From Thermococcus sp. (lineage in GTDB: Archaea > Methanobacteriota_B > Thermococci > Thermococcales > Thermococcaceae): DNA of 64,000 nucleotides. The stretch spans positions 170,486 through 234,485 of the forward strand of contig NZ_JALVUC010000019.1 in assembly GCF_027023865.1 (NCBI RefSeq), in the 5' to 3' direction. Position numbers and translations under genes: made by a program. Below are positions 42,515-47,124 of the stretch, piece by piece. The notes below the pieces were generated by a model. It was not told the origin of the DNA. It saw only the letters and a list, made by a program, of their open reading frames with translations, and did not search any database. The number at the start of each line of letters is the position of its first letter. Position 1 is the first letter of the stretch.

Positions 42515-42745
42515 CTAAGCCTGTTGTTTGAGCTGGAGAACATCAAGGAATGCAACGAAGAGGCCTGGAAGAATTATTGCCCAGGGGCTGATGTTCCAGC
42601 CGAAGGCTATCAGGAGCAGTCCGAGGAGGATATACGTTGTGATGGCTGTCAGCCCTGCTTTGGGAGTGTCCATACGTTTTCTAAGGTATAAATAGAGGAT
42701 GAGGGGTATTCCAAGGGCTATGGCCATTCCAATCCACGCGTTCAT
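42515..42745 (-). CDS. Small membrane protein, unknown
   Basis: A 76-residue protein with two to three hydrophobic helices (AWIGMAIALGIPLILYLYL, TTYILLGLLLIAFGW, WAIILPGLFVAFLDVLQL). ATG 42745 is preceded by AAGGTGATAAAG, a strong SD; a longer start would remove it. Same direction as the membrane genes at 42810 and 43246 and the cysteine-rich secreted gene at 43534, with a 64-base gap, so it may be the end of that operon. Family not recognised. Confidence 0.7.
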   Translation of the reverse strand: MNAWIGMAIALGIPLILYLYLRKRMDTPKAGLTAITTYILLGLLLIAFGWNISPWAIILPGLFVAFLDVLQLKQQA

Positions 42746-42809
42746 CTTTATCACCTTCACGGGCCTGATCCACATCTTCAGAGATTACAAAGGGAAAATC
42801 ATCGAGCTT

Positions 42810-43187
42810 TCACAGCGTTTTCATTTTGTTTTTGTATTCCCGTGGGACAAATATAAGAAAGACCGTCGTAAAGGCTCCTCCAATTCCCGCAAGCAGAAAG
42901 CTCTCCCACGCAGGGAACACCAGTGCCTTTGCAAAAGCCGCCATGCTGAACTCCCAGAGCGTTCCAAGAAGCACTCCAGCGGTAATAGAGTGCCTGGAGT
43001 TCCTTGCAAACCGAACCAGGGCAACCGGAATCCAGTAAATCAGCACTGCAACGGTAAAAGCCATTGCCGCGGCAACTTGGAAAGTGTAGATGTCCTTTAG
43101 ATAAATAAAGTATCCCGCTAAGAGGAACGCCAAAACCAGTGAATGGAATTTTAGAGTGTTCACGTCTCCATTACCGATCATCTTCAT
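42810..43187 (-). CDS. Four-helix membrane protein, unknown
   Basis: A 125-residue protein. Four hydrophobic helices: FHSLVLAFLLAGYFIYL, FQVAAAMAFTVAVLIYWIPV, SITAGVLLGTLWEFSMAAF and FLLAGIGGAFTTVFLIFV. A basic tail (REYKNKMKTL) suggests the C-terminus is cytosolic. No clear SD precedes ATG 43187; ATG 43181 is an alternative. It lies 58 bases after the 91-residue membrane gene. Candidate self-protection or accessory protein of the cysteine-rich precursor at 43534, by position only. Confidence 0.7.
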   Translation of the reverse strand: MKMIGNGDVNTLKFHSLVLAFLLAGYFIYLKDIYTFQVAAAMAFTVAVLIYWIPVALVRFARNSRHSITAGVLLGTLWEFSMAAFAKALVFPAWESFLLAGIGGAFTTVFLIFVPREYKNKMKTL

Positions 43188-43245: not shown

Positions 43246-43521
43246 TTATAGGGCTTTCCGCTTTACCTTACTCTTTAGATACCCTGCCCAAACAAGTTCG
43301 GCAGTCATTATTAAAAGAGCCGCTAGCATACCAACTTTGGCATACTCCCAAGCTAAGAACCCAGTTCCGGACAGGAGCAGTGTTACCGCTATAAAGACTA
43401 TAGCACCCGTTATCTTTGCCCCTATGTGTCCCCTTCTGGGTTTTTCGTATAAGTACACAAGCCAAAAAAGCAGAATCGAAAAAACGGCAGACAAGAAGTT
43501 TTTGATAAAGCTTTCGTTCAT
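43246..43521 (-). CDS. Small three-helix membrane protein
   Basis: A 91-residue protein with hydrophobic helices FLSAVFSILLFWLVYLY, ITGAIVFIAVTLLLSGTGFL and VGMLAALLIMTAELVWAGYL, then a basic tail. GGAGGTGAAAAA is a very strong SD for ATG 43521. It starts 12 bases after the stop of the secreted cysteine-rich gene. Such tight coupling to a small secreted peptide resembles bacteriocin-immunity arrangements; that role is inference. Confidence 0.78.
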   Translation of the reverse strand: MNESFIKNFLSAVFSILLFWLVYLYEKPRRGHIGAKITGAIVFIAVTLLLSGTGFLAWEYAKVGMLAALLIMTAELVWAGYLKSKVKRKAL

Positions 43522-43533
43522 TTTTTCACCTCC

Positions 43534-44208
43534 TCAGGGCCCTGGAGTCCAGCCTTGACAGTACGATCCCCACTGATAGCATGATTCGTAGATACAGAAC
43601 GCACACCAAGTAGCAATGCATACAATGTTATCCCCGCATATCCCACAACATTCAGCGGCTTTGATGATGTCAAACTTACAACAATACCAATGACATTGAC
43701 CCAGAAATCCACAGTCAGAGTTACTCTGACATTCTTGACTACATGAGTTGGAGTCTAGTTTCTTTAATTTCCCATTGAGGTATACAGCATTGGCCTTAGC
43801 GATATTTCCTGTAATAGCATACTCCACCCCAAAAATTTTCACTCCCTGCACTGGTTTTGAGAATTCGTAGAGTGCTATCACGTGTTTCTTGTCCTTCAGG
43901 GGAATTCCCATGGCGAGCATGGTCACTTTCTCACCATTGTACTCAATCGTGTGCTTGACAACCTTAACGTGAGAGTAGTCAACGTCCCAGGGTTTTGCCA
44001 GCTTCCAGAAGTCTCTCGTTGTGACCAGCTTGAAAAACACGTGGACTTCAGACCAGTTCTCTTGAACCTTGCTCACTGGTTTCGTAACTGCAAACGGGTT
44101 TACGCAGCCCTTAACCTCAGGGTACTTGGGATAGCTTACCACGTAGGCACCGTACGCTCCAATGAGAAGCAAGACCACAAGTATGGCCAGTAACGCACGC
44201 CTCCTCAT
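43534..44208 (-). CDS. Secreted cysteine-rich protein, possible peptide antibiotic precursor
   Basis: 224 residues. A signal sequence (RALLAILVVLLLIGAYGAYV) is followed by a ~120-residue domain (36-155) with one Cys at 35 just before it. A C-terminal block of 69 residues holds 14 cysteines at 156, 160, 166, 172, 176, 177, 187, 188, 191, 197, 202, 205, 210 and 217. The block contains hydrophobic stretches (CGDNIVCIATWCAFCIYESC) and ends GWTPGP. Precursors of halocin-C8 type also release a Cys-rich hydrophobic C-terminal peptide, but I see no clear sequence homology. ATG 44208 is set by the shared leader. Two membrane-protein genes follow in the operon, and a tldD-tldE pair diverges. Confidence 0.8.
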   Translation of the reverse strand: MRRRALLAILVVLLLIGAYGAYVVSYPKYPEVKGCVNPFAVTKPVSKVQENWSEVHVFFKLVTTRDFWKLAKPWDVDYSHVKVVKHTIEYNGEKVTMLAMGIPLKDKKHVIALYEFSKPVQGVKIFGVEYAITGNIAKANAVYLNGKLKKLDSNSCSQECQSNSDCGFLGQCHWYCCKFDIIKAAECCGICGDNIVCIATWCAFCIYESCYQWGSYCQGWTPGP

Positions 44209-44269
44209 CGACCCCCCCAATGGGTTTTGCATTATGGTGTCTCCGTTCATAGTATATAACACTTTCGCT
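44209..44269 (-). promoter_or_regulatory. Promoter and C/G-block leader, copy 3
   Basis: Minus strand: AGCGAAAGTGTTATATACTA (44250-44269) with the TATA box, then a leader that ends ACCCATTGGGGGGGTCG directly before ATG 44208. Differs from copy 1 at only a few positions over both blocks. Confidence 0.7.
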
Positions 44270-44420
44270 TGAAAGATGAAGAGATTGGCTGATTTTAACC
44301 TCTTGACTACTGAAGTATGTAACATCTGGGTTTTCTCATTTCGACCCCCATCGAAGCACTCAAAAGACTTTTATAGGTCTCCTCCGAGTCTTCAACGAAC
44401 ATACGTAAACGGTGGTGACC

Positions 44421-45788
44421 ATGGAAGCACTTGAGAAGGCCCTTCGGTGGGCGGATGAGAACCTGAAGGCTGACTACATAGAGCTTCGCTACGAGGACCT
44501 GAAGAAAACCACTTTGGGCCTCAAGGACGGCGTCTTCACGAGCTTTACCGGGAAGCTCCACAGGGGGGTCGCGATAAGGGTTTTAGCGGATGGTGCATGG
44601 GGCTTCGCCTCGACGAGCGATCTTTCAAACCTCGAGGAGAAGATCGAGGAAGCATACAAGCTGGCCAGGGCCGCGGCGGAAACCAAGAAGGAGAAGATAG
44701 AGCTGGCGGAGATAAAGCCCGTTGAGGACTTTGTTAAGAGCAAAATGCGCGTTAAGCCGGGGGAAGTTGACATCGAGGAGAAAGTGAACCACCTGCGGGA
44801 GCTTGAGAATCTCCTCAAGGAGGACAAAGCGGTCAAGAGCGTCCAGATACGCTACGAGGACGGCGGCGGCAGAAAGCTCCTCCTCACCAACGAGGGAACG
44901 AGGATAGAGTGGGACTACAACTACCTCTACCAAGGGGCCTACGTTACCGGGAAAGCCGACGGGAAGCTCGCGATGGCGAGGGACAGCATTGGCTCTGTTG
45001 ACTACGGCTGGGAGCTTATGATGGAGAGGGAGCCAAACGAGAAAGTCAAGGAGAGACTCCTGAGAAAGATGCAGGGCCAGCTCAAGGGTGTCGCCCCGAA
45101 GCGCGGTGAGTTCCCGATTGTGGCCGGCCCGATTGTCGTCGGCATTATCGCTCATGAGGCCCTTGGCCACCTCGCCGAGGCGGATCTAACCATAAACTCG
45201 CCCTTTAAGGACCTCATCGGCAAGCAGATTGCCCCGGAGTACGTAACAATGAGCGAGCGCTACGTCGACGGCGGCTTTGGGAACGACCGCTATGATGATG
45301 AGGGCGTTCCGGTCAGGGACATTCACATAATCGAGAACGGAACCCTCAAGCGGATCATGCTCAACCGTGAGTATGCGGCAAAGTGGGGTATGGAACCGAA
45401 CGGCCACGCGAGAGCCGAGAGTTACCGCTACCCGCCGATAATCAGGATGAGGAACACGGTCTTCGAGCCGGGAGACCACTCCTTTGAAGAACTCATTGAA
45501 GACATTAAGTTCGGCTACTACGTCGTCGACTTCCGCGGCGGCCAGGCCCAGCTCAACAGCGCCTTCCAGGTCGGGGTCCAGGAGGGCTACGTCATCAGGA
45601 ACGGCGAGATAGCGGAACCTATAAGGGACACGTCCATTACAGGTGTCGCCATTGAAGCTTTAAAGAAGATTTCAGGGGTTGGCAAGGACTTCGGAATTGA
45701 GGTCGGCTTCTGTGGAAAGGGTCAGACGGCCTTCGTCAGCTCCGGCGGCCCGCACATGAAGTTTGACGGTGGAATACTGATCGGGTGA
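44421..45788 (+). CDS. tldD: TldD-type metallopeptidase subunit (pair 1)
   Basis: About 455 residues. The zinc motif HEALGHLAEAD gives HExxxH, as in TldD. An N-terminal region (1-~200) forms the dimer interface and the C-terminal barrel ends KGQTAFVSSGGPHMKFDGG. TldD works with TldE to trim peptides inside a closed chamber; in bacteria the pair matures microcins and clears CcdA. A TATA box (CTTTTATAGG, about 44368) and GGTGGTGACC before ATG 44421 support this start. It is transcribed away from the cysteine-rich precursor gene. Confidence 0.93.
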   Translation: MEALEKALRWADENLKADYIELRYEDLKKTTLGLKDGVFTSFTGKLHRGVAIRVLADGAWGFASTSDLSNLEEKIEEAYKLARAAAETKKEKIELAEIKPVEDFVKSKMRVKPGEVDIEEKVNHLRELENLLKEDKAVKSVQIRYEDGGGRKLLLTNEGTRIEWDYNYLYQGAYVTGKADGKLAMARDSIGSVDYGWELMMEREPNEKVKERLLRKMQGQLKGVAPKRGEFPIVAGPIVVGIIAHEALGHLAEADLTINSPFKDLIGKQIAPEYVTMSERYVDGGFGNDRYDDEGVPVRDIHIIENGTLKRIMLNREYAAKWGMEPNGHARAESYRYPPIIRMRNTVFEPGDHSFEELIEDIKFGYYVVDFRGGQAQLNSAFQVGVQEGYVIRNGEIAEPIRDTSITGVAIEALKKISGVGKDFGIEVGFCGKGQTAFVSSGGPHMKFDGGILIG

Positions 45789-45798
45789 GGTGGTGAAG

Positions 45799-47124
45799 AT
45801 GGAGAACCTCATAAGATTCGGCGAGAAGTTTTTCGACGAGCTTGAGATAGCCGTTTATCGCTCGAGGGACGTCAGCGCGAGCGTCGAGCTGAACGAGATT
45901 TCAATGGCCTCAACGAGGGGCGGGGCCGTAACTGTAATCCGCGGAATAAATGAGGGGCGCCTCGGTCTTGCCATTATCGACAGCGACGATCCCGAGAGGA
46001 TTAAAGAGGCCATAGAGCAGGCCGCGAAGATGGCAAAACTCAACGGCAGAGACGAGAAGTGGGTCTCCCTCCCGGAGCCGGGGGCTTATAAAGAGGCCCC
46101 AAAGCCAAACTACGGGCTTAAAGAAGCATCGCCAGATATACTCGTCGAGAAGCTTGTTCGCGGGATAAAACTCGCCCGCGAGAAGGACCCCAATGCGGTA
46201 GTTGCTGGTGGCGAGGGCGGTGTTTCCTGGGAGAAGAGGCACGTGGTTAATTCGCACGGCGTAGACGTCTTCCAGGAGGGTGGTGCGGCATTCTTCTTCC
46301 TTGAGCTTGTCGGCAGGAAGGGAGACGTGGTTACGCCCGGCATCTTCGACTTCGATGCGCGCAGGGATTTAAACCTCGACGTCGATGGCGTCGTCGATAG
46401 GGCCGTTCAGAGGGTTAGGTGGGCCTATAACGTGGAGAAGAGCAGGAACGAGGAAGTTCCGATAATTCTCGGCCCGTGGGCGATAGCCGGCCTTCTCAGC
46501 TACACCCTCCTGCCGGCCTTCAGCGGTGAGCGCTTGGTTAAAGAGACGACTCCCTTAGCGGGGAAGGTAGGCGAAAAAATAGCGAGTGAGGTCCTGACGA
46601 TCTACGACGATCCCTTCCACCCGCTCTCTCTTGAACCGACCGTAGCGGACGGCGAGGGCGTTCCTACTAGGAAGAACGTCCTTATTGAGAACGGAACCTT
46701 CAGAGGCTTCGTCTGGGACAACTACTGGGCGAAGGTTAACGGCACTGAGAGTACCGGGAACGGGAAGCGCGACCTGAAAAGTGGTGGGATAGGCATAGAC
46801 TTCCATAACGTTGTTATAGAGAACGGAAAGCGCTCGCTCGAAGATCTCATAGCGGAAATAGACAGGGGTTACTTCGTGGACGGCTTCCAGGGTGCACACT
46901 CGAGCAATCCAGACAACGGAAACTTCGCGGTCACTGCAAACCCAGCATTTCTCATTGAGGATGGGGAAGTTAAGGGCGCTAGCGTGTTCCTCGTGGCTGG
47001 CAACGTTTACGAACTGCTGAACCGGGCAAGCGAGATAACGAGGGAGCAGACGGTAATGCCCTTCATGACCACGATGACGACGCCGTTCATAAAGTTCGAG
47101 AACGTTAAGATAGCGGGGAAGTGA
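45799..47124 (+). CDS. tldE: TldE/PmbA-type subunit (pair 1)
   Basis: About 441 residues, the non-catalytic partner of the TldD at 44421. It lacks the HExxxH motif. Family landmarks include NSHGVDVFQEGGAAFFFLEL, LGPWAIAGLLSYTLLPAFSG and AHSSNPDNGNFAVTANPAFL. ATG 45799 follows GAGGTGGTGAAG and starts ten bases after the tldD stop, so expression is coupled. A second, clearly homologous pair lies at 57864-60618. Confidence 0.93.
   Translation: MENLIRFGEKFFDELEIAVYRSRDVSASVELNEISMASTRGGAVTVIRGINEGRLGLAIIDSDDPERIKEAIEQAAKMAKLNGRDEKWVSLPEPGAYKEAPKPNYGLKEASPDILVEKLVRGIKLAREKDPNAVVAGGEGGVSWEKRHVVNSHGVDVFQEGGAAFFFLELVGRKGDVVTPGIFDFDARRDLNLDVDGVVDRAVQRVRWAYNVEKSRNEEVPIILGPWAIAGLLSYTLLPAFSGERLVKETTPLAGKVGEKIASEVLTIYDDPFHPLSLEPTVADGEGVPTRKNVLIENGTFRGFVWDNYWAKVNGTESTGNGKRDLKSGGIGIDFHNVVIENGKRSLEDLIAEIDRGYFVDGFQGAHSSNPDNGNFAVTANPAFLIEDGEVKGASVFLVAGNVYELLNRASEITREQTVMPFMTTMTTPFIKFENVKIAGK

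Follow-up and report, generated by a model that had tools for sequence, protein, structure and literature searches.

A candidate polymorphic archaeocin precursor of Thermococcaceae with an exchangeable cysteine-rich tail and a matched membrane protein

The stretch of Thermococcus sp. DNA analysed here (64,000 nucleotides in all; the window) encodes a 224-residue protein that we judge, with considerable confidence, to be the precursor of a polymorphic, disulfide-locked archaeocin with membrane immunity; killing, cleavage and target are inferred. The initial annotation had read the locus as an antagonistic peptide with membrane immunity. This reading is now supported comparatively, by the matched swapping of tails and transmembrane (TM) genes and by broken toxin genes with kept TM genes, while activity and processing remain inferred. 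Note that no killing, cleavage, secretion or immunity experiment stands behind it.

The precursor gene and the small TM genes behind it

The features of the locus are listed in Table 1. Both the precursor gene and the 91-aa gene lie on the minus strand (the initial annotation named no strand). The claim of 14 cysteines in the last 69 residues was confirmed by the ORF 44208..43534, with Cys at positions 35, 156, 160, 166, 172, 176, 177, 187, 188, 191, 197, 202, 205, 210 and 217, against a Cys background of 0.65% in the window's long ORFs. None of these ORFs approaches this density except a ferredoxin-like frame, with 8 Cys per 70 residues. The architecture is not a product of chance, as it recurs in dozens of Thermococcaceae genomes. 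Calling the C-terminal block hydrophobic was an overstatement: the tail has a computed GRAVY of ~0.1 and a pI of ~4.3. The small three-helix membrane protein reported 12 bases on was found as described. After the precursor stop, GGAGGTGAAAAA precedes the ATG of this ORF, with a stop-to-start gap of 12 nt.

Table 1. Coordinates of the precursor gene, its parts and the small TM genes downstream
Feature	Position	Strand	Basis or remark
Candidate polymorphic archaeocin precursor gene	43534..44208	-	224 aa + stop; ORF, with homologs or relics in 42/94 Thermococcales genomes
Residues 1-25, signal or N-terminal TM segment (MRRRALLAILVVLLLIGAYGAYVVS)	44134..44208	-	Alignment; helix 2-25 in AlphaFold model
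Residues 26-126, conserved precursor (middle) domain	43831..44133	-	Alignment; follows genus, independent of toxin type
Residues 127-155, variable linker	43744..43830	-	Alignment; dS drop from N-terminal part to tail
Residues 156-224, hypervariable Cys-rich tail	43537..43743	-	14 Cys (even), ~7.8 kDa; candidate mature toxin
Candidate TATA box (TTATATAC)	44252..44259	-	~45-50 nt upstream of precursor ATG; read directly from sequence only
Shine-Dalgarno GGAGGTGA of 91-aa gene	43526..43533	-	Directly after toxin stop
Cognate candidate immunity protein, 91 aa	43246..43521	-	3 predicted TM segments; family only in 2 genomes with window tail type
Second small TM protein, 125 aa, candidate orphan immunity gene	42810..43187	-	Homologous to gene directly after other-type toxins
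Third small TM protein, 86 aa (76 aa from internal start)	42515..42775	-	Usually last in arrays, before cupin gene

The N-terminal sequence of the precursor is basic and hydrophobic. The family alignment shows a nearly invariant Cys35 and the motifs ENWS and YEFSKPVQGVK in the middle domain. The linker is likely both the breakpoint region of the cassette described below and the site of proteolytic release, each by inference. A search of the genome (1.92 Mb, 98.7% complete) for TatC was negative, with controls positive in 11 of 14 genomes; Sec-type export of the precursor is therefore inferred. Cys35 stands just after the signal segment (GCVNPF) and is a single residue, which makes the Cys count of the whole precursor odd. 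It might form a bond with a second chain or be lipid-modified, and its near invariance is not explained by the archaeocin reading.

Downstream, the 91-aa, 125-aa and 86-aa TM ORFs follow one another on the same strand, and a cupin gene comes after them. The family of the 125-aa protein supplies the gene after the toxins of loci L007 and L050 and after the relics L049, L056 and L080. A genome search found only one toxin gene of the precursor family in the window genome; a weak second match proved to be reverse gyrase and was discarded as a chance match. Since its family follows another toxin type and the genome has this one toxin gene only, the 125-aa gene looks like an orphan immunity gene, with immunity itself inferred. 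The same role is possible for the third TM gene. Members of its family mostly close the array, but in L006 one stands immediately behind the toxin, and in L057 immediately behind the relic.

Exchange of tail and TM gene, and decay of toxin genes

N-terminal part, tail and TM protein were compared across the 31 loci with an intact Cys tail. Mean normalised similarity was 0.75 for the N-terminal part versus 0.33 for the tail. The N-terminal part follows genus (r=0.52, 0 of 9999 permutations), whereas the tail does not (r=0.05, p=0.21). The similarity contrast and the genus test together satisfy one criterion for a polymorphic system, a conserved N-terminal part combined with a variable C-terminal region. 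At a similarity of 0.6 the tails form ~14 types, several of which span two to four genera.

The number of Cys residues is even in all 31 tails (14, 16, 18 or 20), an outcome with a chance probability of ~6e-5 when the 14 types are treated as independent. Cys columns 56 and 64 are both occupied in 9 sequences and both empty in 22, with no sequence having only one; columns 37 and 75 are likewise gained or lost only as a pair. Even, pairwise cysteines are the behaviour expected of bonded pairs, although the bonds themselves are inferred from the alignment.

A second criterion for a polymorphic system, an adjacent gene specific to the C-terminal type, is also met. Similarity between tails correlated with similarity between the TM proteins encoded next (r=0.705, 0 of 9999 permutations; partial r=0.702 given the N-terminal part), whereas the N-terminal part correlated with the TM protein only at r=0.089. 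For 24 of 31 loci, the locus with the closest tail was also the one with the closest TM protein, compared to 0 of 31 when neighbours were chosen by N-terminal part. The 91-aa TM family occurs in exactly two of the 94 genomes, and these are the two with the window tail type. Two loci count against a strict match, L006 and L057, which have an unexpected TM family beside the toxin. Adjacent genes can also co-travel by linkage alone. The N-terminal part, however, is equally closely linked and yet does not co-follow.

In some pairs of loci, the N-terminal part has a far higher dS than either the tail or the TM gene. For the type-matched loci L064 and L040, which belong to different genera, dS was 2.60 in the N-terminal part but only 0.37 for the tail and 0.55 for the TM gene, and their DNA similarity does not continue past the stop codon of the first TM gene. 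The low dS of tail and TM gene and this end point identify the moving unit as the tail plus the first TM gene. Judged by these comparisons, the two pass from strain to strain and across genera as a single cassette. Within types, tail and TM gene are mostly under purifying selection. A third criterion for a polymorphic system, cassette exchange together with orphan TM genes, is met by the dS contrast, the end of similarity and the TM arrays.

The two genes do not decay alike. About ten loci have a broken toxin gene with an intact TM gene (L061, L109, L049, L058, L054, L108, L080, L029, L039 and L055, the last a relic that may be an assembly error), the toxin gene being disrupted by frameshifts, stops or large deletions at its 5' end or in its interior. 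In five others (L060, L056, L062, L059 and L057) both genes are damaged, absent or unclear. Among the loci examined, no intact toxin gene was seen without an intact TM gene behind it, L006 having the unexpected TM family. The 10:0 asymmetry corresponds to p ~0.001 in a plain one-sided sign test. The TM gene is shorter and hence a smaller mutation target than the toxin gene; under a length-weighted null of ~0.7 per locus, p is ~0.03. Where a relic's tail type is still readable, the TM gene that survives in most cases matches it. Further TM genes stand in arrays behind toxin loci, and one TM family has members in genomes that lack the matching toxin. This pattern, established by comparing loci, is one of toxin genes decaying faster than the putative immunity genes, and of other-type immunity genes accumulating behind; that the TM genes confer immunity is inferred.

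Known systems and rival readings

The plan of the protein had been likened to that of halocin C8. As an analogy the comparison holds, halocin C8 being the product of an archaeal secreted precursor with a Cys-rich C-terminal antimicrobial tail of 70-76 residues. It does not extend to family membership. The halocin C8 domain model TIGR04449 (cut-off 24 bits) gave no match at E<=1 for the window protein or ten family members, and reached 36.4 bits on the same genome (G000:C25:129249). In HHalign comparisons with halocin C8-like groups, neither tail nor precursor reached a probability of 1%, against 97% in the positive control, an alignment of two thermococcal halocin-C8-like groups. In the HHalign tail run the halocin C8 tails were in part mis-cut, a fault absent from the full-length comparison. 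Halocin C8 has 10 Cys and no detectable sequence or profile similarity to the window protein. The halocin C8 precursor is exported by Tat, and this criterion of the family is not met, with no TatC in the 98.7% complete genome. Going by the title of a 2005 paper by Sun and colleagues, halocin C8 production and immunity reportedly come from one gene, in contrast to the separate, variable TM gene that is the immunity candidate here. That the window gene is nevertheless a true family member, too diverged for the models, would fit the shared plan and the small hydrophobic ORF that follows several halocin-C8-like Thermococcales genes, but we regard it as highly improbable, as TIGR04449 finds other loci of the genome and not this gene, and HHalign separates it from its control.

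The halocin C8 model matches three other loci in this genome, C25:129249-129503 (L097), C1:57803-58021 (L098) and C25:189954-190169 (L099), which provide the best control for placing the precursor gene outside the family. Each is an ORF with a Cys-rich C-terminus, one of them above the curated cut-off, and in L097 and L099 a hydrophobic ORF comes next in the same direction.

Processing of halocin C8 (ProC8) releases an active C-terminal fragment (PMC12893001, citing Sun et al. 2005). In halocin H4/HlyR4, a secreted archaeal precursor likewise yields a C-terminal fragment that is active after proteolysis (PMC12893001); the protein is a different one, and the protease is known there, whereas none has been identified for the window precursor. 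Polymorphic toxin systems (Zhang et al. 2012, PMC3482391) share a conserved N-terminus with a swappable C-terminal toxin, an adjacent cognate immunity gene, orphan immunity arrays and toxin relics. They differ in that the window gene has, in place of an enzyme, a small peptide-like toxin domain rich in disulfides, and in that the precursor, at only ~225-250 aa, has no known trafficking or pre-toxin domain. The VARTIG proteins of Thermococcales (Makarova et al. 2021, PMC8416519) also have a C-terminus made hypervariable by recombination and a proposed role in conflict or self-nonself recognition; unlike the window precursor, they are large Ig-domain proteins without a Cys-dense tail. Membership in VARTIG was rejected for the 224-aa precursor, which has no Ig-family match in Pfam.

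Neither the protein nor its family nor the tail had a match in sequence searches of Pfam, NCBIfam and PDB. The tail search had been proposed as a check, and it revealed no known structural or adhesion domain. The proposed structure prediction was carried out and remained indecisive, the AlphaFold model being too weak to judge the fold (pLDDT 68, pTM 0.45); Foldseek of this model against PDB returned nothing at E<0.5. VIA-align gave a best Z of 4.1 over the middle domain, with cystatin- and ketosteroid-isomerase-like folds among the rows, which we did not consider meaningful. Representative TM proteins had only sub-threshold matches in Pfam and NCBIfam.

The matched hypervariable pairs and the swapping of cassettes would look the same if the tail were a secreted or surface ligand and the membrane-embedded TM protein its receptor, in a kin-recognition or signalling pair without killing. 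We consider this unlikely: a receptor without its own ligand brings no obvious gain, yet TM genes outlast the loss of the toxin and gather in orphan arrays, as immunity genes would be expected to, and the TM proteins (70-136 aa) have no recognised signalling domain. The same retention and accumulation of TM genes after toxin decay is left unexplained if the precursor is a surface structural or adhesion protein, with a Cys tail that viruses have driven to diversify and a TM gene for its assembly partner. The N-terminal TM segment, the extracellular disulfide-type tail and the hypervariability would suit such a role. It is quite improbable nonetheless, given the lack of any Pfam, NCBIfam, solved-structure or PDB fold match (the fold search using the weak model) and the absence of the family from 52 of 94 genomes. 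Hardly credible is a metal-binding extracellular protein of metallothionein-like or iron-sulfur kind; it has the Cys density and the CC and CxxC motifs in its favour, but accounts neither for even Cys numbers in 31 of 31 tails and pairwise columns nor for a matched, variable TM gene.

On the archaeocin reading, the precursor would be exported by Sec, its N-terminal helix acting as signal or membrane anchor, and the middle domain would aid export or folding or hold the tail inactive. The 69-residue tail would fold outside the cell, locked by seven inferred disulfides, and be freed by an unknown protease cutting in the linker; no dedicated protease or exporter is linked to the gene in all loci. 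The free tail may attack close relatives that lack the matching protein, either at the cell membrane or at a receptor in it; a membrane target is hinted at only by the fact that all candidate immunity proteins sit in the membrane. The 91-aa three-TM protein of the same operon would give self-immunity to the window tail type. The comparisons of loci add that tail and TM gene are swapped as a unit among strains and genera, that putative immunity genes for other types pile up behind, and that toxin genes decay sooner than these.

We lean towards the inference that these are previously undescribed polymorphic archaeocins restricted to Thermococcaceae, in which toxin-immunity competition is carried by a swappable peptide with seven to ten disulfides and a type-specific membrane immunity protein, from a precursor unrelated to that of halocin C8. 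No report of a Thermococcales antimicrobial peptide was found in the literature searched; this search was incomplete and did not cover a survey of archaeal antimicrobial peptides that Makarova and colleagues are said to have published in mBio in 2019, which could list the precursor family. If the peptides are active, a genetically tractable group of hyperthermophiles gains a peptide weapon of its own, in which some 14 types of toxin and the immunity families that match them form a ready-made specificity code. Competition among kin at hot vents could then be put to the test, and the family would be a source of extremely stable disulfide-rich peptides.

Distribution and genomic setting

The precursor family or its relics were found in 42 of 94 Thermococcales genomes (E<=0.01). 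At phylum level all profile matches lay inside Thermococcales genomes, the phylum's 21 genomes from other orders yielding none, and no homologs were found in the plasmids or viral contigs searched. In most loci of two genera (g1 and g3), the gene lies between tldD and the cupin gene or beside tldD; outside these genera it occupies other sites. In the window, as in most loci of the two genera, the toxin gene is divergently adjoined upstream by two genes (44412..47124) that we take to be tldD and tldE. In E. coli, TldD/TldE (PmbA) matures microcin B17. Because the toxins of other genera are not beside these genes, the neighbourhood may be an insertion site only.

At one tldD site (L110, G022:C1:1379000-1384500), a minus-strand ORF carries the same leader (MRRRALLAVFVVLVLVGAY) fused to an unrelated protein of ~270 aa, for which Pfam gave no match. 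This fusion is possibly a leader swap to another effector.
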